From: Bacteroidota bacterium | GTDB lineage: Bacteria > Bacteroidota > Bacteroidia > Flavobacteriales_F > PHOS-HE28 | Direction: 5' to 3' | Length of the DNA: 34,170 nucleotides | Assembly (NCBI GenBank): GCA_014584605.1 | Contig: JACTMO010000076.1 | Span: forward strand, 1-34,170 | Shown: positions 1-27,904 of the stretch, one piece after another | Layout: each line of letters begins with the position of its first letter | How positions within the stretch are numbered: the first letter of the stretch is position 1 | Program-made: the position numbers and the translations under genes | Notes under the pieces: model-generated | Told to the model about the DNA's origin: nothing | What the model saw: the letters and a program-made list of their open reading frames with translations, nothing else | The model's database searches: none

Positions 1-270
1 AAGGAGGGCAAGGGCCACATCACCCTCACCGTGGAGCCGCGCGGCGACCAGCTCCTGTGGATCATCGAGGACGACGGCGTGGGCCGCAACGCCCCCAAGA
101 CCGCCGCACCCGAGCAGCCCACCAAGAAGACCTCCCTGGGCACGGCCATCACCCGCAGCCGACTCGATCTGGTGCAGAAGCAGCACGGCGGCCACGCCGG
201 CTTCCGCTACGTGGACCGCCCCACCGGCACCCGCGTGGAGGTGGAGATGCCGCTGCTGAGGGACGCGTAG
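1..270 (+). CDS. LytS-type sensor histidine kinase, C-terminal end (5' truncated by window edge)
   Basis: The reading frame is open from base 1 and ends at TAG 268-270, giving the last 89 residues of a larger protein. The residues IIEDDGVGRN form the G1 box of a GHKL ATPase (Asp-x-Gly-x-Gly). The stretch KTSLGTAITRSRL matches the region after the ATP lid in Bacteroidota LytS/YehU-type kinases, where SLG-x-x-I-T-x-x-R-L is usual. The C-terminal GTRVEVEMPLL is the final strand that normally closes the domain. It would bind ATP for autophosphorylation and pass phosphate to a LytTR regulator. The sensor part and the phospho-accepting His lie outside the window, so the signal is unknown. A structured intergenic repeat begins 8 bases after the stop. 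The internal GTG at 31 is not a likely start, because the domain is already under way upstream of it. Confidence 0.85.
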   Translation, partial: KEGKGHITLTVEPRGDQLLWIIEDDGVGRNAPKTAAPEQPTKKTSLGTAITRSRLDLVQKQHGGHAGFRYVDRPTGTRVEVEMPLLRDA

Positions 271-278
271 ACTCAACT

Positions 279-559
279 CCCCTCCTGCGCGTGGATCGCT
301 CCACGCGCCGAACAAGGAGGGGCTGGGGGAGGCTTCAACTCAGAAAACACGCCATCTCTCCTTCAGCGGTAACCACCCCGTTCCCCTCCTTGCCGGGCCC
401 GGCGGAGCGGTCCGCCGGACAGGAGGGGCCTTCATACCGTTCAATTCCCCTCCGCGTGTGTCGTTGTCCACTGCCGCCGTCAGGTCGCCTCCCATCTTTC
501 TTCCTGGCTCTTCCTCCTTGCTCCTTCCTCCCTCCTGCTCCCGCCCTGCGGGAAGGCCG
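279..559. repeat. 281-bp structured intergenic repeat, copy 1
   Basis: This stretch recurs at 10167-10447 with a constant offset of 9888 bases, no indels and about 7 substitutions by eye (at 333, 345, 382, 395, 490, 491 and 540). It contains three stem-loops. Hairpin 1 (279-322) has outer arms CCCCTCCT and AGGAGGGG around a perfect 9-bp inner stem, GCGCGTGGA/TCCACGCGC, with a TCGC loop. Hairpin 2 (383-428) has the same outer arms around CCGGCGGA/TCCGCCGG with a GCGG loop. Hairpin 3 (539-553) is TCCCGC-CCT-GCGGGA. A pyrimidine-rich tract with TTCCTCC motifs lies at about 494-540. Open frames cross it but look like no protein, and both copies lie between genes. It may be a mobile repeat, a structured RNA or a bidirectional terminator. 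Confidence 0.9.
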
Positions 560-10142: not shown

Positions 10143-10166
10143 TGGGGGCCTTCATCCCATCCAACG

Positions 10167-10447
10167 CCCCTCCTGCGCGTGGATCGCTCCACGCGCCGAA
10201 CAAGGAGGGGCTGGGGGAGGTTTCAACTCAGAGAACACGCCATCTCTCCTTCAGCGGTAACCACCCCGTCCCCCTCCTTGCCAGGCCCGGCGGAGCGGTC
10301 CGCCGGACAGGAGGGGCCTTCATACCGTTCAATTCCCCTCCGCGTGTGTCGTTGTCCACTGCCGCCGTCAGGTCGCCAGCCATCTTTCTTCCTGGCTCTT
10401 CCTCCTTGCTCCTTCCTCCCTCCTGCTTCCGCCCTGCGGGAAGGCCG
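10167..10447. repeat. 281-bp structured intergenic repeat, copy 2
   Basis: This matches 279-559 base for base except for about seven substitutions. Hairpin 1 spans 10167-10210 and hairpin 2 spans 10271-10316, both with outer arms CCCCTCCT/AGGAGGGG and intact inner stems. The hairpin 3 position keeps CCGC-CCT-GCGG but has lost one outer base. Compared with copy 1, it is preceded by a partial extra unit (from 10145) that resembles the sequence after hairpin 2, so the element may be built from repeating modules. It ends about 50 bases before the start of the beta-propeller gene, so it may lie in that gene's upstream control region. Confidence 0.9.
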
Positions 10448-18148: not shown

Positions 18149-21100
18149 TCAGCGGCGGATGTAGATGTAACCGGTGAAGGGTTCCTCACCGTTGCCCAGG
18201 TCCAGAATGAAGTAGTAGGTGCTCTCGGGCAGCTCCTCGCCCCAGTTGAGGCTGTTCTCGCTGCGGCCGTCCCAATCGTTGGTGTAAGGCGAACGGTCCA
18301 ACACCTTGGCGCCCCAGCGGTTGAACACCTGCAGGCTGTTGTCCGGGTAGCTCTCCAGGTTGTGGACCACGTAAGTGTCGTTCACGCCGTCGCCGTTGGG
18401 GCTGAAGGCGTCGGGCACGATCACCGTCAGGCAGTCCTTCAGGCGCACCAGCACCGAGTCCATGGTGGTGCCGCACACCCCGTTGCTCACCGTCCAGACG
18501 AACCAGGTGTTGCCCAGCGCCAGGTCTTCCACGAAGCAGGCCGGGTCGCCCGGGTCGCTGAGGGTGGCCGTGCCGCCCGCGATGGACCAGACCCCGGTGG
18601 CCAGGTCGTCGAACACGGGCTCGGCATCGAGCGCGGTGCCGCTGAACAGGTGCTGGCAGAACTCCTGGTCATCGCCCGCATCGGCCGGGGCCAGCGCACT
18701 GTCGTACACGAAGAAGCTCATCTGGTCGCTGGTGGTGCCGCAAGCGCCGTTGTCGATGGTCCACTCGAAGACCGTCTCACCCAGGCCCAGGTCGGTCACC
18801 GCGGTGAAGGGACTGGTGGGATCGGCCAAGGTGCCGGTGCCGGTGATCAAGGTCCAGAGACCAACGGCCGGGGGAATGGGTGAGCTGGCGAACATGGTGG
18901 TGCTGGGTGCGGGTGAACAGAAGCTCTGGTCGTCGCCGGCAAGTGCGGCGGCGGCGGTGTGATCGAAGACCTGGATCACCACGGTGTCGGTGGTGAGACC
19001 CGGTGTGCAGGGCCCGTTGTCGATGGTCCACAGCAGCACGGTGGTGCCCGGGGTGAGCCCGATGATGGTGCTGGTGGGGCTGGCCGGGTCGGTCACCGTG
19101 CCGCTGCCGCCCAGCACCGTCCAGGTACCGGTGGCCGGGAAGATGAGGGCGTTGCCGGCCAGTGTGGTGCTGCTGGTGGGCGTGCACAGCTCCTGGTCGG
19201 GACCGGCGTCCGCCGCATCCTGGCCCGCATCGAACACGCTGATGCTGACCTGGTCGGTGGTGGTACCGTTGGGGCAGGGCCCGTTGCTCACGGTCCATTC
19301 GAACACGCTCACGCCCACCTGCAGGTCGGTGATGGTGGTGGTGGGGCTGGCCGGGTCGGTGATGGTGCCCGTGCCGCTCACCAGGGTCCACAGGCCGGTG
19401 GCCGGGTAGGTGGGCGGGATGGCGGCCATGGTCACCGTGTTGGGGAAGGTGGGGATGCAGATCTCCTGGTCGGGACCGGCGTCCGCAACGGCGGAGTTCA
19501 GATCGAAGAGCGTCACCTGCATGGTGTCGGTGGTCACCGCATTGGGGCAGGGCCCGTTGTCGATGGTCCACACGAACACGTTGTCACCGATGCTCAGGTT
19601 GAAGACCGCGGTGTTGGGGTCGCTCGCATCGGCCAGGGTTCCGCCACCCTGCAGCACCGTCCACTGGCCCGTGGCCGGGAAGATGGGGTCGTTGGCCGTG
19701 AGCACCGTGCCGGTGGTGGGCGTGCACAGTTCCTGGTCGGGACCGGTCTGCGCGGGCGGCTGGTTCTCGTCGAAGATGAAGATGCTCACCGTGTCGGTGC
19801 TCGGCGGCCCGAAGCCGCATTGGCCGTTGTAGATCTGCCACACGAACACGTTCTCGCCGACGGCCAGGTCGGTGATCATGCTGAAGGGGTTGTGCATCTC
19901 CACGATGGTGCCGGACCCGCTCACCAGGCTCCAGGTGCCTTCACCCGGGAACGCGGGGATGTTGCCCTGCATCATGGTGTTCACCTGCGGGGTGCACAGC
20001 TCCTGGTCGTCTCCGGCATCGGCCGTGGGCGCCGTGGGGTCGTACACGAAGACCTGCATCGTGTCGCTCATGATGCCGTTGGGCGGGCAGGGACCGTTGT
20101 CCAGGGTCCAGACCAGGGTGGTGATGCCCACGGCGAGGTCGGTGACCGCCGAAGTGGGGTTCGCCGGGTCCACGACGGTGCCCGAGCCGCCGATGATGGT
20201 CCAGCTGCCCGTGGCCGGGGCCTGCGGGGGCGCGGCGGCCATGGTGGTGCTGGTCAGGGGCAGGCACACCTCCTGGTCGGGACCCGCATCGGCGGCGCTG
20301 GTGCTGTCGTCATACAGGATCACCGTCACGTCGTCGAAAGTGATGGGGTTGGCACAGGGGCCGTTGTCCACCGTCCAGCGGAAGGTGTTGACACCGATGC
20401 TCAGGGTGCTCACCAGCGTACCGGGGTCGCTGGCATCGGCGAACACGCCCGTGCCGGCGATCACCGTCCAGGTGCCCGTGGCGGGGAAGATGGGCGTGTT
20501 GCCCGCCAGGAAGGTGCTGTCGGTGGGCACGCACAGCTCCTGGTCCACGCCCGCGTCGGCCGCCGGGCTGTTCGGGTCGAACACGAAGATGCTCACCAGG
20601 TCGTCGCTGATGCCGCAGACACTGTTGTCGATGGTCCACTGGAAGATGTTCTCACCCACGGTGAGCCCGGTGACCTCCGTCAGCGGATCGTTCGCATCGG
20701 TGAACACGCCGGTGCCCTGCACCACGGTCCAGGTGCCGATGGCCACGCCCACGGCGGCGTTGCCCTGCAGCAGGGTGGTGCTGGTGGGTGCGCAGAGCTC
20801 CTGGTCGGGGCCTGCATCGGCCGGCGGCGCATTCTCGTCGAAGAGGTCGATCACCATGTTGTCGGTGGTGAGGCCGTTGGCACAGGGGCCGTTGCTCACC
20901 GTCCAGGCGAACTCGTTCTGGCCGATGCCCAGGCCGGTGACGGTGGTGTTGGGGTCGCTGGGGTCGGTGATGGTGCCCTGGCCGCTCACCAGCGTCCACT
21001 GGCCCGTGGCCGGGAAGGTCACCGGGCTGCCGCTCAAGGTGGCGCTGGTGATGGGCGTGCACCGTTCCTGGTCGGGGCCCGCGTTGGCATCGGGGTTGGT

Positions 21101-24100
21101 GCTGTCGTAAATGAACACGCTCATCGCATCGCTGGTCACCGGGTTGGCGCAGGGGCCGTTGGTCACCGTCCACAGGAAGACGCTCTCGCCCACCGTCAGG
21201 CCCGTCACCGCCGTGTTGGGGTCGGTGGGGTCCACGATGGTGCCGCTGCCGCTCACCAGGGTCCACTGGCCGGTGGCCGGGTAGGTCACCGGGCTACCGG
21301 CCAGGTTGGTGGTGGTGTCGGGCGTGCAGTGCTGCTGATCGGGGCCGGCATCGGCCACGGGGTTGTTCTCGTCATAGAGGAAGATGCTGAGCGTATCGCT
21401 CGTCAGCCCGTTGGCGCAGGGGCCGTTGTCCACGGTCCAAACCAGCACGTTCTGCCCCACCAACAGCCCGCTCACGGTGGTGGCCGGGTCGTTGGCATCG
21501 GCGAAGCTGCCGCCACCGGCGAGCACCGTCCATGTGCCCACGCTTGGGAAGATCGCGGGGCTGCCGGCGAGCGTGGCGCTGGTGGTGGGTGTGCACAGGT
21601 CCTGATCGGGGCCCGCATCGGCGCTGGCGCTCTGCGGATCGAAGACCTGGATGCTCACCTGATCGGTGGTGATGCCGCTGGTGCAGGGGCCGTTGTCCAC
21701 GGTCCACGCCAGCACGGTCTCGCCCACCCCGAGGTCGGTGACCACACTGTTCGGGTCGGCGGGGTTCACGATGGTGGCACTGCCGCTCACCACCGTCCAG
21801 AGGCCGGTGGCCGGGAAGGTCACCGGGCTGCCCGCCAGGGTCACCGTATTGTCCGGCGCGCACAGCTCCTGGTCAGGACCGGCGTCGGCCACCGGGTTGG
21901 CATCGTCGAACACGAAGAGGCTCACCAGGTCGCTGGTGCCGGCGTTCGCACAGGGACCGTTGTCCACCGTCCATTGCAGCACGGTCTCCCCGACGCCCAG
22001 ACCGGACACCAGGCTGCCCGGGTCGTTGGGGACGGCGATGAGGGCGCTGCCGCTCACCACCGTCCAGGTGCCGACGGCCGGGAAGATCGGCGTGTTGCCC
22101 GCAAGGGTGGTGCTGCTGGTCGGTGTGCACAGCGCCTGATCGGGGCCGGCATCGGCATTGGCGTTGCTGGCATCGAAGAGGAACACGCTCACCGTGTCCG
22201 AGGTGATGGCGCCATTGCACGGACCGTTGCTCACGGTCCACACCAGCACGTTCTCACCCACGCCCAGGCCACTGACCACGGCGTTCGGCATGCCCGGATC
22301 GTTGATGGTGCCGCTTCCGGCGATGAGGGTCCAGCTCCCCGTGGCCGGAAAGGTCAGGGTGCTGCCCGCCATGGTGGCGTTCACGTTCGGCGTGCACAGC
22401 TCCTGGTCAGGGCCCGCATCGGCCACCGGGTTGTTCTGGTCGAAGACGAAGAGGCTGACCTCGTCGAAGGTGATCGGGTTGGAGCAGGGACCGTTGCTCA
22501 CCGTCCAGCGGAACACGTTCTCCCCGACCGGCAGGCCGGTGATGGCCGTGGTGGGGCTGCCGGGCGTGACGATGGTGCCTCCACCGCTCACCAGGGTCCA
22601 GGTGCCGGTGGCGGGGCTGGTGAGCGGGCTGCCGGACATGGTGGTGCTGGTGTTCGGTGTGCACAGCTCCTGATCGGGCCCGGCATCGGCGGGCGGATGG
22701 TTCGCGTCGAACACCAGGATGCTCACCTGGTCGCTGGTATTGCCGTTCAGGCAGGGACCGTTGTCCACCGACCATTGGAAGGTGTTGATGCCGATCGCCA
22801 GGCCGTCCACCGTGGTGTTGGGATCGGTGGGGTCGGCCAGGATGCCGCTGCCGGAGACCAGGGTCCACAGGCCGGTGGCGGGGGCCAGCAGCTCGCTTCC
22901 ATCGAGCACGGCCGCATCGTCCGGCGTGCAATACTGTTGGTCGGGCCCGGCGTTGGCGATGGGGTTGTTGTTGTCGTACACCACCACGCGCAGGGTGTCC
23001 ACGGTGATCCCGTTGGCGCAGGGACCGTTGCTCACCGTCCAGGTGTACAGGTTGGTGCCGACCGAGTAGCCGCTGAGGTTGGTGAAGGGGGCGTTCTGAT
23101 CGGCGAAGGTGCCGCTGCCGCTCACCACGGCCCAGGTACCGGTGGCCGGGAAGGTCACCGGGCTTCCGTTCACCACGGTGAGGGTGGTGAGGATGCAGAG
23201 CTCCTGGTCGGGGCCTGCATCGGCCACCGCGTTGTTCTGGTCGAAGACGAAGAGGCTGACCTCATCGAAGCTCGGCGTGCCGCACACGCCGTTGTCCACC
23301 GTCCACCGCAGGACGGTCTCGCCCACGCCGAGGCCGGTCACCAGGGAGGCCGGGTCGTTGGGGTCCGCGATGTTCGCGCTGCCGCTCACCACGGTCCAGG
23401 TGCCGATGGCGGGGAAGGTCACCGGACCGCCTGCCAGCGAAGTGCTGCTGGCGGGCGTGCACAGCTCCTGATCGGGACCTGCATCCGCCGCCGCGTTTCC
23501 GCCATCGAAGACGGTGATGCTCACCTGGTCACTGGTGATGCCGTTCGCACAGGGGCCGTTGTCGATGGTCCACTGGAACACGTTCACCCCGACACCAAGG
23601 CCGTTCACCACGGTCAGCGGGTCGTTCGGGTTCAGGATGTTGCCGCTGCCGCTCACCAGGGTCCAGGTGCCCGTGGCGGGGAAGGTCACCGCGTTGCCGG
23701 CAAGCGTCACCTGGTTGGGTACATTGGGGATGCAGATGCTCTGGTCGGGGCCCGCGGTCGCGTTGGCCTGTGTTGCGTCGAACACCGTCACCGTCATCAC
23801 ATCCGTGCTCACTCCGCAGGCACCGTTGTCGATGTTCCACTGCAGCACGTTGGTGCCCACGCTCAGGCCGGTGACCTGGGTGGTGGCGCTCGTGGGATCG
23901 GCGAAGGTGGCCGTGCCCTGCAGCACGGTCCAGCTCCCTGTGGCCAGGCCCGTGGGCGTGTTGCCGGCCATGGTGATGGTCGTGGTGGTGCTGCAGATCG
24001 TCTGATCGGGACCTGCGTCAGCAGGTTGGGCGTTGCCGTTGAACAGGTTGATCGTCACCTGGTCGTTGGTGATGGGGTTCGCGCAGTTGCCGTTGCTTAC

Positions 24101-27100
24101 GGTCCACTGGAACACGTTGGGCCCAAGGCCCAGGCCGGTCACCTGGCTGTTGGGGTCGGCCGGGTTCACGATGGTGCCGCTGCCGCTCACCAGGGTCCAG
24201 GTGCCCGTGGCGGGCACGATGAGCGGGCTGCCGGCGAGCACCGTGCCGGTGATCGGCGTGCACAGGTTCTGATCGGGCCCGGCATTGGCCACGGGATTGG
24301 CGGCATCGAACACGAACACCGTCACCTCATCGGTGGTGAGGCCGTTGGCACAGACGCCGTTGTTCACCGTCCAGCGGAACACGTTGATGCCCACGGCCAG
24401 GCCGGTCACCAGCGTGTTCGGGTCGTTGGGGTCCGCGATCGTTCCAGAGCCGCTCAGCAGGGTCCAGGTGCCTACGGCCGGGGGGATCACGGCACTGCCC
24501 TGCAGGTTCACTTCCGACGGCACGGTGGGCACGCAGATCTGCTGGTCGGGCCCGGCATTGGCCACCGGATTGGTGCTGTCGAAGAGGGTGATGGACACTT
24601 CATCGGAACTGCTGCCCGCACAAGGGCCGTTGCTCACCGTCCAGCGGAAGACGTTCACCCCCACGCCCAGGCCGGTGATGGCGGTGCTGGCCGTGTTGGG
24701 CGAGGCGATGGTACCCGCACCGCTCACCAGGGTCCAGGTGCCGGTACCGGGGAAGATCACCGCACTGCCCGTCAGGGTGGTGCTGTTCGTGGGCGTGCAG
24801 AGCTGCTGGTCGGTACCGGCGTTCGCCGCGGGCATGGTCGGGTCGTACAGGGCAATGGTCACCTGATCGGTCGTCGGTGCGCCGCACGCTCCGTTGTCCA
24901 CCGTCCATTGGAACACGTTGTTGCCCACGGCCAGACCCGTCACCGCGCTGTTGGGATCGTTCGGTGTGCTGATGCTTCCACTGCCGCTCACCAGCGTCCA
25001 GGTACCGATGCCCGGTGCGGTCACGGCGTTACCGGCCAGGTTTGTGGTGGTGGTCGCGCAGAGCGCCTGGTCCGGACCGGCGGCCGCAGCGGCCTGGTTC
25101 ACGTCATACACCATCACGGTCACCTGATCGCTGCTCACCGGGTTCAGACAGGCCCCGTTGCTCACCGTCCACTGGAACACGTTGGCCCCCAGGCCCAGGC
25201 CGGTGACGATACTGGCGGGGTTGCCGGGGCTTGCGATGGAGCCGCTGCCATTCACCAGCGTCCACACCCCGGTGGCGGGGAAGGTGGGCGTGTTGCCGGC
25301 CAGGGTGATGGAGGTCGTGGAGGAACAGATGGACTGGTCCGGCCCGGCATAGGCGGCCGGTGCGTTGACATCGAACACCCGGATGGTGACCTCATCGTTG
25401 GTGAGGCCGTTGGCGCAGGGCCCGTTGTTCACCGTCCAGCGGAACACGTTGTTGCCCACGCCCAGGTTGGTCACCGGGGTGGTGGGCGATCCCGGGTTCA
25501 CGATCGTGCCGCTGCCGCTCACCAGGGTCCAGGTGCCCGTGGCCGGCGGGATCGGCGCGTTGCCGGCCAGCTGGGTGCTGTTGGTACTGCTGCAGATCTC
25601 CTGGTCGGGCCCGGCGTTGGCCGAGGGCGAAGCACTGCTGAACACGGTCACGCTCACCTGGTCCTGGGTCACGCCGTTCCCGCAAGGCCCGTTGTTCAGG
25701 GTCCACTGGAAGATGTTGACGCCCAAGCCCAGGTTGGTCACCAGGGTACTGGGGCTGTTCGGGTTGGAGAGCGTGCCTTGACCGCTCACCAGGGTCCAGG
25801 TGCCGGAGGCGGGTGCGATGGGCGCATTGCCCGTGAGGGTGATGCTGTTCGGCGGGGCACAGAGCGTGAGGTCCGCTCCGGCATTGGCGTTCGGGCTGTT
25901 CTGGTCGAACACGGTCACGGTCACCTCATCCTGGGTGCTCGGAGGTGCGCAGGGCCCGTTGCTGATGGTCCAGCGGAAGCGGTTCACCCCGATGCTCAGG
26001 CCGGACACACCGCTGGTGGGGCTGTTGGCGTTGGCGAACACCCCGCTGCCCTGCAGCACGGTCCAGGTGCCCGTGGCCGGGAAGATGGGCGTGTTGGCGG
26101 CGAGGGTGGTGGCGGTGGTGGGGGTGCACAGTTGCTGGTCGGGACCGGCGTTGGCCGCGGCCTGGGCGTTGTTGTACACGAAGATGGTCACCTCGTCCAT
26201 CGTCGGTGCGCCGCAGGGCCCGTTGTTGATGGTCCACCGGAAGGTGTTGGCACCCACGCTCAGACCGGTCACCGGGCTGGTGGGGCTGTTGGGGTTGGTC
26301 ACGGTGCCGGTGCCGTTCACCAGGGTCCAGGTGCCCACCGCGGGTGCTGCGGCCGTGTTGGCGCCCAGGGTGGTGCCGGTGGCCGGCAGGCAGAGCGCCT
26401 GGTCCGGTCCCGCGTTGGCCGCGGCCTGTCCGGGGTTGAAGCTGGTGATCGTCACCTGGTCGGTGGCGATGCCGCAGGTGCCGTAGTCCACGCTCCATTG
26501 GAACACATTGGTCCCCTGCGCCAGGCCGCTCACCGCGCTGGTGGGCGAGTTGTCATCGGCGAAAGTGCCGCTGCCGCTCACCACGGTCCACGTACCGGTC
26601 ACCTGGTTGTAGGGCAGCTGTCCGGCCAGGGTGGCCGTGCCGCCGCACACCTGCTGGTCGGGCCCGGCAATGGCCGGGGTGAAGGGCGGGGTCACGATCA
26701 CCGAATAGCCGAAGTCGTTGGTGCCGACCAGCGGACAGGCGTCATCGGTGACCGTCACCGTGAAGTTGTTGGTGCCGATGTCGGCCACGGTGGGCGTCCA
26801 GTTGAAGGTGCCCGTGGGGAAGGGCGTTCCGGCCGTGGTGAACGTGGCGCCGCTGATGCCGCCGTTCCAGTTCATCTGCACGGTCTGCCCGGCGTTCGCA
26901 TCGTTGGAGTTGATGGTGAAGGTGATGGGCACGCCCGCGCATACCGAGGCGGTGTAGTTCGCCGAACCGTTGATGCCGCTGGCCGTTGGCGCGGTGTTGC
27001 CGGCGCACGAGCGCACCACCACCTGCACATCGCGGGTCACCGAGCCGATCTGCACCCCGTTGCGGAACTCGCGCACCCGATAGGTCACCACCGCCACCTG

Positions 27101-27904
27101 CAGCTGGCTGGGCACCACCGTCATGGTGCCGGTGGTGGCGTTGAGCTGGACCGCGCCGCCACCACCGCCGTTGCGCACCGGTTGCAGGGCGCTGTACCCG
27201 GCGGCGTAGGTGAGGTTGTTGCCGTTGGCGCCGCGGGCGGCGATCAGTTCATAGGTCAGCTGATCACCGTCGGGGTCCACCGCACCGGGATTGTAGCTCA
27301 CGCTCTGGCCCAGGCAGTAGAACGGCGTGGGGTTGGTGAGGAAGTCCGCCGAGTTGTTGCACGGCGACACGGTGTTGTTCAGGGTGGCGTCCAGGTACAG
27401 GTTCTGGTTGCCGGGGTTCTGCAGGGAGGTGATGGCGTTGTTGCGGCAGCACAGCGACCAGCTGAACACCCAATCGGTGCCGCAACCGGCCCAGGCGCTG
27501 AGGTCGACCAGTTTGGTGTAGGTGTACTTCTCCACACCGTACACGCCATTGCTGTTCAGGCAGCGGTCGGTCTCGCTGGCACATATGGGCGTGATCACCT
27601 GCACGCTCTGGAAGGTGAAGCACTGGTTGAAGTTGGCTCCGCACTGTGTGCTGCGCACGTTGAAGCTGAGCCCGTTGTTGCAGTTGGTGGGCGCGGCCAC
27701 ACCGTTGCAATCGCGGTAGAAGTCCAGCGTCACCAGGTACTGGTTCGGGGCCACACAGGTGTAGCTGATCTCACCGCCCATGGCGTGGGTGGCGCGGGCC
27801 TCATGGCCCCAACCCAGCATGGCGAGCACGGCCAGGGGAGCGAGGGATCGACGGAGGAGTTGCGCGACGCGCGACGTGCAGTGGGAGCGTAGGGTTCGGG
27901 TCAT
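18149..27904 (-). CDS. Giant T9SS-exported adhesin-like protein with 31 tandem modules and type B sorting domain
   Basis: The protein has 3251 residues. A signal peptide ends near EARA, followed by THAMGGEISYTC, the usual start of Bacteroidota gliding-associated surface proteins. Residues up to about 410 form beta-rich domains with paired cysteines and a cadherin/Ig-like segment (about 310-405). Then come 31 tandem modules of about 83-91 residues, each opening with a form of AGPDQxxC, a central GTWTLVSGSGTI and V-x-GLGVG-x-N-V-F-x-W, and a late NGPC. The last 94 residues are a T9SS type B (gliding-motility-associated) sorting domain: VPDAFSPNGDGVNDTYVV, LQVFNRWGAKV, then TYYFILDLGNGEEPFTGYIYIRR. 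The protein should leave the cell by the type IX system and stay at the surface, perhaps for adhesion or gliding. No enzyme domain is seen. It heads the operon with the PorP/SprF and OmpA-family genes. Confidence 0.95.
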   Translation of the reverse strand: MTRTLRSHCTSRVAQLLRRSLAPLAVLAMLGWGHEARATHAMGGEISYTCVAPNQYLVTLDFYRDCNGVAAPTNCNNGLSFNVRSTQCGANFNQCFTFQSVQVITPICASETDRCLNSNGVYGVEKYTYTKLVDLSAWAGCGTDWVFSWSLCCRNNAITSLQNPGNQNLYLDATLNNTVSPCNNSADFLTNPTPFYCLGQSVSYNPGAVDPDGDQLTYELIAARGANGNNLTYAAGYSALQPVRNGGGGGAVQLNATTGTMTVVPSQLQVAVVTYRVREFRNGVQIGSVTRDVQVVVRSCAGNTAPTASGINGSANYTASVCAGVPITFTINSNDANAGQTVQMNWNGGISGATFTTAGTPFPTGTFNWTPTVADIGTNNFTVTVTDDACPLVGTNDFGYSVIVTPPFTPAIAGPDQQVCGGTATLAGQLPYNQVTGTWTVVSGSGTFADDNSPTSAVSGLAQGTNVFQWSVDYGTCGIATDQVTITSFNPGQAAANAGPDQALCLPATGTTLGANTAAAPAVGTWTLVNGTGTVTNPNSPTSPVTGLSVGANTFRWTINNGPCGAPTMDEVTIFVYNNAQAAANAGPDQQLCTPTTATTLAANTPIFPATGTWTVLQGSGVFANANSPTSGVSGLSIGVNRFRWTISNGPCAPPSTQDEVTVTVFDQNSPNANAGADLTLCAPPNSITLTGNAPIAPASGTWTLVSGQGTLSNPNSPSTLVTNLGLGVNIFQWTLNNGPCGNGVTQDQVSVTVFSSASPSANAGPDQEICSSTNSTQLAGNAPIPPATGTWTLVSGSGTIVNPGSPTTPVTNLGVGNNVFRWTVNNGPCANGLTNDEVTIRVFDVNAPAAYAGPDQSICSSTTSITLAGNTPTFPATGVWTLVNGSGSIASPGNPASIVTGLGLGANVFQWTVSNGACLNPVSSDQVTVMVYDVNQAAAAAGPDQALCATTTTNLAGNAVTAPGIGTWTLVSGSGSISTPNDPNSAVTGLAVGNNVFQWTVDNGACGAPTTDQVTIALYDPTMPAANAGTDQQLCTPTNSTTLTGSAVIFPGTGTWTLVSGAGTIASPNTASTAITGLGVGVNVFRWTVSNGPCAGSSSDEVSITLFDSTNPVANAGPDQQICVPTVPSEVNLQGSAVIPPAVGTWTLLSGSGTIADPNDPNTLVTGLAVGINVFRWTVNNGVCANGLTTDEVTVFVFDAANPVANAGPDQNLCTPITGTVLAGSPLIVPATGTWTLVSGSGTIVNPADPNSQVTGLGLGPNVFQWTVSNGNCANPITNDQVTINLFNGNAQPADAGPDQTICSTTTTITMAGNTPTGLATGSWTVLQGTATFADPTSATTQVTGLSVGTNVLQWNIDNGACGVSTDVMTVTVFDATQANATAGPDQSICIPNVPNQVTLAGNAVTFPATGTWTLVSGSGNILNPNDPLTVVNGLGVGVNVFQWTIDNGPCANGITSDQVSITVFDGGNAAADAGPDQELCTPASSTSLAGGPVTFPAIGTWTVVSGSANIADPNDPASLVTGLGVGETVLRWTVDNGVCGTPSFDEVSLFVFDQNNAVADAGPDQELCILTTLTVVNGSPVTFPATGTWAVVSGSGTFADQNAPFTNLSGYSVGTNLYTWTVSNGPCANGITVDTLRVVVYDNNNPIANAGPDQQYCTPDDAAVLDGSELLAPATGLWTLVSGSGILADPTDPNTTVDGLAIGINTFQWSVDNGPCLNGNTSDQVSILVFDANHPPADAGPDQELCTPNTSTTMSGSPLTSPATGTWTLVSGGGTIVTPGSPTTAITGLPVGENVFRWTVSNGPCSNPITFDEVSLFVFDQNNPVADAGPDQELCTPNVNATMAGSTLTFPATGSWTLIAGSGTINDPGMPNAVVSGLGVGENVLVWTVSNGPCNGAITSDTVSVFLFDASNANADAGPDQALCTPTSSTTLAGNTPIFPAVGTWTVVSGSALIAVPNDPGSLVSGLGVGETVLQWTVDNGPCANAGTSDLVSLFVFDDANPVADAGPDQELCAPDNTVTLAGSPVTFPATGLWTVVSGSATIVNPADPNSVVTDLGVGETVLAWTVDNGPCTSGITTDQVSIQVFDPQSASADAGPDQDLCTPTTSATLAGSPAIFPSVGTWTVLAGGGSFADANDPATTVSGLLVGQNVLVWTVDNGPCANGLTSDTLSIFLYDENNPVADAGPDQQHCTPDTTTNLAGSPVTYPATGQWTLVSGSGTIVDPTDPNTAVTGLTVGESVFLWTVTNGPCANPVTSDAMSVFIYDSTNPDANAGPDQERCTPITSATLSGSPVTFPATGQWTLVSGQGTITDPSDPNTTVTGLGIGQNEFAWTVSNGPCANGLTTDNMVIDLFDENAPPADAGPDQELCAPTSTTLLQGNAAVGVAIGTWTVVQGTGVFTDANDPLTEVTGLTVGENIFQWTIDNSVCGISDDLVSIFVFDPNSPAADAGVDQELCVPTDSTFLAGNTPIFPATGTWTVIAGTGVFADASDPGTLVSTLSIGVNTFRWTVDNGPCANPITFDDVTVILYDDSTSAADAGPDQEVCLPLTSTTMAAAPPQAPATGSWTIIGGSGTVVDPANPTSAVTDLAVGITTLVWTLDNGPCPPNGIMSDTMQVFVYDPTAPTADAGDDQELCTPQVNTMMQGNIPAFPGEGTWSLVSGSGTIVEMHNPFSMITDLAVGENVFVWQIYNGQCGFGPPSTDTVSIFIFDENQPPAQTGPDQELCTPTTGTVLTANDPIFPATGQWTVLQGGGTLADASDPNTAVFNLSIGDNVFVWTIDNGPCPNAVTTDTMQVTLFDLNSAVADAGPDQEICIPTFPNTVTMAAIPPTYPATGLWTLVSGTGTITDPASPTTTITDLQVGVSVFEWTVSNGPCPNGTTTDQVSISVFDAGQDAADAGPDQELCTPTSSTTLAGNALIFPATGTWTVLGGSGTVTDPASPTSTIIGLTPGTTVLLWTIDNGPCTPGLTTDTVVIQVFDHTAAAALAGDDQSFCSPAPSTTMFASSPIPPAVGLWTLITGTGTLADPTSPFTAVTDLGLGETVFEWTIDNGACGTTSDQMSFFVYDSALAPADAGDDQEFCQHLFSGTALDAEPVFDDLATGVWSIAGGTATLSDPGDPACFVEDLALGNTWFVWTVSNGVCGTTMDSVLVRLKDCLTVIVPDAFSPNGDGVNDTYVVHNLESYPDNSLQVFNRWGAKVLDRSPYTNDWDGRSENSLNWGEELPESTYYFILDLGNGEEPFTGYIYIRR
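18434..26672 (-). repeat. 31 tandem coding repeats of about 264 bp
   Basis: The internal array of the giant gene covers about 8.2 kb. I counted 31 modules by the AGPDQ-like opening (variants AGADL, AGTDQ, AGVDQ, AGDDQ, TGPDQ). Every module keeps two cysteines, one five to eight residues after the opening and one in the NGPC-like segment. The residue just before the opening is mostly Asn in modules nearest the N-terminus and mostly Asp further on. The last three modules (nearest 18434) are the most divergent. The array also keeps long antisense frames open; these are by-products. Such arrays are prone to recombination and to assembly collapse, so the module number may vary between strains or assemblies. 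Confidence 0.93.

Follow-up and report, generated by a model that had tools for sequence, protein, structure and literature searches.

What is the 281-bp stretch that occurs twice between genes within 34,170 nucleotides of a Bacteroidota bacterium (contig JACTMO010000076.1, positions 1 to 34,170, called the window here), and how did it come to be copied? A preliminary description had placed the copies at 279-559 and 10167-10447 with about seven differences and no indels, and direct comparison of both copies gave exactly 7 differing positions of 281 (333, 345, 382, 395, 490, 491 and 540) and 0 indels, the similarity reaching to 274-559 and 10162-10447 (97% over 286 nt). Likeness beyond chance, which had also been claimed, was evident from the 281-bp query, matching at 18 places in the own genome of the bacterium (G000), and from the pattern CCCCTCCT-N8-38-AGGAGGGG, with 19 occurrences in that genome versus 1 for the reversed-pattern control. 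In our judgement the element is probably a REP/BIME-like (REPIN-like) dispersed palindrome, non-autonomous, built as an inverted dimer and spread in trans.

The repeating unit is shorter than the doubled stretch. Only the first ~155-180 bp of the 281 bp are common to most other copies, and the last ~105 bp (454-559, or more loosely from about 447) match a different repeat, which stands alone in the genomes G008 and G026; the 281 bp are thus a composite that was copied once, and the length first given for the unit has to be replaced. The natural element is a hairpin dimer of ~160 bp, present at 273-434 and 10161-10322. In copy 1 (273..434, the part common to other copies), covariance model hits cover 273-340 on the plus strand (89.6 bits) and 365-434 on the minus strand (64.6 bits), and between conserved 6-nt flanks the order is monomer Hb, a 60-nt spacer and monomer Ha. 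Hb (279..322, plus strand), as delimited by the sequence and by pairing counts on 34 related monomers, has its clamp at 279-286/315-322 and the inner stem GCGCGTGGA/TCCACGCGC at 287-295/300-308, with the loop TCGC (296-299) and the tail CGAACA (309-314). The spacer (323..382) is variable in its centre and partly complementary at its ends (GGGGGAGG at 325-332, AACCACCCC at 371-379). Ha (383..428, minus strand, i.e. in opposite orientation), placed by sequence and model hit, has its clamp at 383-390/421-428, the tail TGCCGG at 391-396 and the inner stem GCCCGGCGGA/TCCGCCGGAC at 397-406/411-420 around the loop GCGG (407-410). Hence the earlier observation of two hairpins with common outer arms around different perfect inner stems and 4-nt loops is accurate. 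Downstream lie a linker with a degenerate clamp CCCCTCC (429..453), apparently of a truncated further unit and resembling the one that separates the tandem units of contig C65, and a pyrimidine-rich segment of the different repeat (454..559), copied along with the dimer and matching the dimer-less loci of G008 and G026. Copy 2 (10161..10322; model hits 10161-10228 on the plus and 10253-10322 on the minus strand) has an identical Hb (10167..10210, plus strand) and an Ha (10271..10316, minus strand) with one change, the equivalent of G395A, in the unpaired tail; comparison with copy 1 places its linker and the same foreign segment at 10323..10447. Elsewhere in the window (18149-27820, minus strand), a 3223-aa gene contains about 30 repeats of 267 nt that are 60-78% alike.

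Across the family the monomer consensus reads T(C/G)AA(G/C)(C/T) - CCCCTCCT - inner stem of 9-10 bp - 4-nt loop - inner stem - CNNNCA - AGGAGGGG - NNNGGGGWGGTTTC, so that in each monomer the clamp CCCCTCCT/AGGAGGGG, which hardly changes, encloses an inner stem of variable sequence, and a GGGGWGGTTTC tail follows. The two monomers of a pair point towards each other, tail to tail, at a distance of mostly 52-60 nt, or more where an extra hairpin is inserted. Such an extra hairpin, TCCGCCGTCGCTTCGCTATGGCGGAC, was seen in Hb between AGGAGGGG and GGGGGAGG at the same point in three species (L043 ~591-625, L116 ~2220 and L186 ~2145). Inner-stem types include GCGCGTGGA (that of Hb), GAGCAGCGA, GTCCGGCGGA, GGCGATCGA, GTTCGGCGGA and GAGGGGCGA, among others, and every script-parsed dimer combined two different types (61 rows, both strands counted), these heterotypic pairings not being independent as dimers replicate as units. 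On contig C65 the units stand in tandem with a period of ~164 bp.

The covariance model identified 23 monomers at 11 sites in the own genome, and with this the possibility of only two copies arisen by one segmental duplication falls away. In seven other genomes of the genus the model found 38, 36, 20, 11, 2, 1 and 1 monomers, the carriers including the Flavobacteriales MAGs SJ163 and Go_SlAct_bin_145, and in the remaining 37 of the 45 genus genomes it found none. We infer mobility from this patchy distribution; against the REP reading, 11-38 monomers in the richer genomes is a low number for a REP family. Pontibacter (Cytophagales) and other genera of the phylum have a similar core, CCCCTCC-loop-GGAGGGG-NN-GGGGTGG, in many cases with short loops, and these possibly related hairpins score at most 28.6 bits with the model, a match that is partly that of the simple clamp. 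The phylum scan (5/395) is a lower bound for that subtype only, since the 2-nt linker of the pattern misfits the 3-nt linker of the own genome. Extra short-loop clamp hairpins beyond the one by which the stretch was fetched were seen in several of eight 8-kb Pontibacter stretches (L136, L141, L143, L149), which suggests high copy number there. The element had no match in phage and plasmid collections, and the viral collection gave a single isolated exact match to the pattern, in one viral contig.

Substitutions between the two window copies do spare the stems of hairpins 1 and 2, as the preliminary description noted (0 of 7). Given 70 paired positions among the 281, however, such an outcome is expected by chance with a probability of 0.135, so that two copies alone prove nothing on structure. 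The wider family gives a stronger signal. In 34 monomers 98.3% of pair cells were paired, and covariation was 0.264 versus 0.093 after shuffling (0/500 shuffles); in 41 monomers from G005 and G462 the values were 96.3% and 0.360 versus 0.115 (0/500), the latter alignment having been made by the covariance model and therefore leaning towards it. The shuffles ignore relatedness, alignment A2 is dominated by two stem types, and alignment A1, with inconsistent gaps in 9- and 10-bp stems, was left out of the pair counts. Once the pairing partners were slid, the score fell to 0.00-0.05. The double changes sit in the inner stem, and the clamp hardly varies. Compensated single pairs were found also inside stem types, i.e. 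on contigs C65 and C71 a change from GCGCGTGGA to GCGTGTGGA, matched by TCCACACGC, GGTGGA/TCCACC in G005 and GTGGC/GCCAC in G026, and C-A and T-G (G-T) intermediates are present among these changes. Thus the search of the genome and its relatives returned what had been predicted, many intergenic copies with compensating stem changes. The element is, as first suggested, a modular repeat whose nested hairpins are conserved, and probably a non-autonomous one.

Within one dimer subfamily (12 dimers) there was no excess covariation, which places the signal between stem types, where it could reflect a small number of events or the repair of palindromes by template switching; covariation cannot separate selection from such repair. 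Whole dimers have strong predicted folds, with z-scores of -4.6 as RNA and -6.1 as DNA. A four-way junction is the predicted minimum-energy fold in most dimers tested, and as its central stem and long-range pairs had no covariation in the one subfamily analysed, it is to be read as a prediction only. In the predicted folds the complementary spacer ends pair, a pairing without covariation support, and the comparison of local with long-range clamp pairing gave a mixed result on few informative cases.

By a codon-based gene caller, all clusters but one were intergenic, the exception being a remnant in a doubtful call within repeat DNA. A sensor histidine kinase gene ends with its stop codon 8 nt before copy 1, and copy 2 lies 111 nt after a gene for a TonB C-terminal domain and about 50 nt before another gene. 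Both copies are thus 3' of a gene, as the preliminary description had it, but the association with membrane signalling or transport that it drew from this is coincidence, because the neighbour genes across the family are of all kinds. Flanking genes are in tandem in 24 cases, convergent in 13 and divergent in 5 (convergent versus divergent, one-sided p 0.048). All 13 elements at most 25 nt from a gene follow a stop codon, and as five of these come from one kinase family, about nine are independent (9/9 after stops, p about 0.002).

The hairpins lie in many cases 6-13 nt past stop codons, as intrinsic terminators might, but no T-run follows either hairpin and no terminator-like site was found within either copy, so that the bidirectional terminator suggested at first is extremely improbable. 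That the element is a 3'-UTR structure kept by selection, e.g. an mRNA stabiliser or processing site, would agree with the strong RNA and DNA folds, the stem covariation, the 3' position beside stops and the fact that four species have kept it behind the same kinase gene. It accords poorly with the lack of the element in most relatives and with the varied neighbours, and the presence of both hairpin orientations in every dimer means that no strand is fixed. A known structured RNA, another of the first proposals, is not indicated either, as no Rfam 15 family matched at the gathering threshold and below it only weak hits to unrelated eukaryotic families appeared. We regard a selected function in the 3'-UTR as distinctly unlikely.

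Comparison of loci bears on how copies persist and change. The kinase-linked copy is common to the own genome, where it follows two paralogues, and to G008, G026 and G033, and its Ha inner stem is of GTCCGGCGGA type in G000 versus GAGCAGCGA type in the other three; judged from these sequences, it is an old, inherited copy that has undergone stem exchange. Window positions 1-417 and contig C86 of the same genome (36735-37151) have near-identical histidine-kinase 3' ends plus the element, both running to a contig end, and represent a paralogue pair or an assembly ambiguity. Elsewhere the element is absent in G008 beside the corresponding gene; several flanks in that genome are without it, and its intergenic regions are too rearranged for the insertion ends to be fixed. 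A check for target-site duplications gave no clean one; the longest flank match was 5.2 versus 4.7 in permutations, a difference that came from the conserved flanks of the repeat itself. Around many copies in the genus we observed repeats of the form CACGTCATCGCGAGGCGGGC...GAAGCGATCTCC (L106 3000-3110, L193 4720-4780 and L044 around 640-700), which resemble CGTC-tagged REPs. On contig C19 of G000 a hybrid hairpin is found where G008 has two copies with 4.2 kb between them, suggesting that copies have recombined with each other. This hybrid and the exchanged kinase-site stem, together with the lack of covariation excess in the subfamily and of a cognate transposase, would suit spread without transposition by any enzyme: copies would recombine, undergo gene conversion and exchange sequence by template switching during replication, processes that would also make the stems perfect. 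Such spread does not readily account for copies in many places whose sequences, flanks included, are unrelated, nor for 0 copies in 37 of 45 genomes versus 11-38 in five, and we consider it unlikely.

A mobilising enzyme was sought in the genomes. The element carries no gene, no linked transposase was found in the surroundings of the copies, and no encoded parent transposon in their immediate surroundings. The sole Y1-type, RAYT-like gene of the own genome is intact and lies on contig C43, a 3-kb contig on which no clamp hairpin was found; its relatives (55-74% identity) are mostly in element-less genomes, none being detected in G005, G033 and G024. Neither was a clamp hairpin found at the RAYT/Y1-type loci examined in G000, G005, G008, G020, G026 and G462, which represent part of the genus; PF01797 was searched in part of the genus, and G026 and G033, outside that part, may hold an undetected RAYT. 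For the genes examined, a resident RAYT as linked mobiliser was rejected, co-occurrence with the element and flanking hairpins both being absent. GTAG and CGTC tags were not found, the hairpin foot being CCCCTCCT/AGGAGGGG with the 5' flank TSAASY. In favour of a classical REPIN with a resident RAYT as its mobiliser are the inverted pair, spacer and tandem clusters, as in REPINs (PMC3116915), and the intact gene; the RAYTs of Bacteroidetes subclass 2.6 are reported with atypical, non-GTAG structures (PMC6006769), which leaves room for a RAYT origin. Given the hairpin-free RAYT contig, the missing co-occurrence across the genus and the missing GTAG tag, such a classical REPIN is very unlikely.

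For the REP/BIME-like reading preferred here, the unit consists of two ~65-nt monomers that differ in stem type and form an inverted dimer; it would spread as DNA, probably through a nuclease or transposase in trans that acts on the single-stranded hairpin. Clamp and tail may then be the recognition sequence, and the inner stem of 9-10 bp would serve as structure, free in sequence provided that pairing holds. Settling 3' of genes would be where the element does least harm, and later persistence may be due to descent, tandem amplification and recombination between copies. If transcribed, the element would place a strong hairpin in the untranslated RNA at the 3' end, and this might secondarily affect how stable the mRNA is. 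Going further, it is a tentative possibility that these are RAYT-independent palindromic mobile repeats of Bacteroidota with fixed clamp-and-tail recognition and the inner helix as an exchangeable module, in which a dimer must pair two different helices, may form a four-way junction in single strands, and is copied by an enzyme to which no mobilisation of repeats has so far been ascribed.

The clamp is itself a target of mobile DNA. In G033 an IS110-type left end, CTTTAGGATCGCAG, is joined at AGGA|GGGG of the clamp in three different elements (L178 ~576, L181 ~155 in reverse complement, L182 ~2325), the insertion sequence being typed by PF01548/PF02371 and NF033542. IS elements are known to target REPs (PMC1525189). 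By resemblance, this targeting may be called REP-like, without being proof of REP membership. The IS110-type element also has a 7-mer CCCCTCC about 40 nt before its ATG, within the non-coding region on the 5' side; this 7-mer is, as a weak lead, a candidate bridge-RNA guide.

ERIC and Correia-type palindromes and MITEs are, like the element, imperfect palindromes of about 130-170 bp, intergenic and non-coding, and we know of no sequence relation between them and the element. Proteobacteria are the best-known source of GTAG-tagged REPs, and those of Bacteroidota are, to our knowledge, poorly described. REPs have been described as inverted dimers of two different monomers, lying between genes close to 3' ends and having a spacer with complementary ends, and CGTC-tagged REPs have been reported from Bacteroidetes (PMC3733652). 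With REPINs and BIMEs (PMC3116915, PMC3733652) the element shares short palindromic monomers in inverted pairs with different stem types per dimer, complementary spacer ends, tandem clusters, a non-coding, extragenic position near 3' ends and the role of IS target; it differs by the absence of a GTAG or CGTC tag, the fixed 8-bp clamp around a variable inner stem, the lack of a linked RAYT, the low copy number and the restriction to some species of the genus. Being dispersed, extragenic, palindromic, multicopy and in inverted pairs, it falls under REP/BIME/REPIN in the broad sense, but it has neither GT[AG]G at the hairpin foot nor, at the loci examined, a RAYT flanked by the same REP, as GTAG REPs and RAYT-associated REPINs do. 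CGTC-tagged REPs are likewise intergenic hairpins in dimers, and CGTC-resembling repeats surround many of the elements, whereas the element has no CGTC terminus and no free-standing stem of 8-9 bp with a 4-5 nt loop. The clamp hairpins of Pontibacter and other Bacteroidota share the core and, in Pontibacter, long-inner-stem forms as well, but many have loops of 2-6 nt without inner stem and their pairs are mostly outward-facing.

The element is thus probably a new branch of a known class of small mobile bacterial palindromes, the REPs, in which the signal splits cleanly into a clamp fixed in sequence and an inner stem kept in structure only. Three IS110-type insertions at one clamp position suggest that a bridge-RNA recombinase recognises the clamp as its target, and the presence and absence of the element among close species, with 8 carriers versus 37 non-carriers, allow the missing enzyme to be looked for by phyletic profiling.
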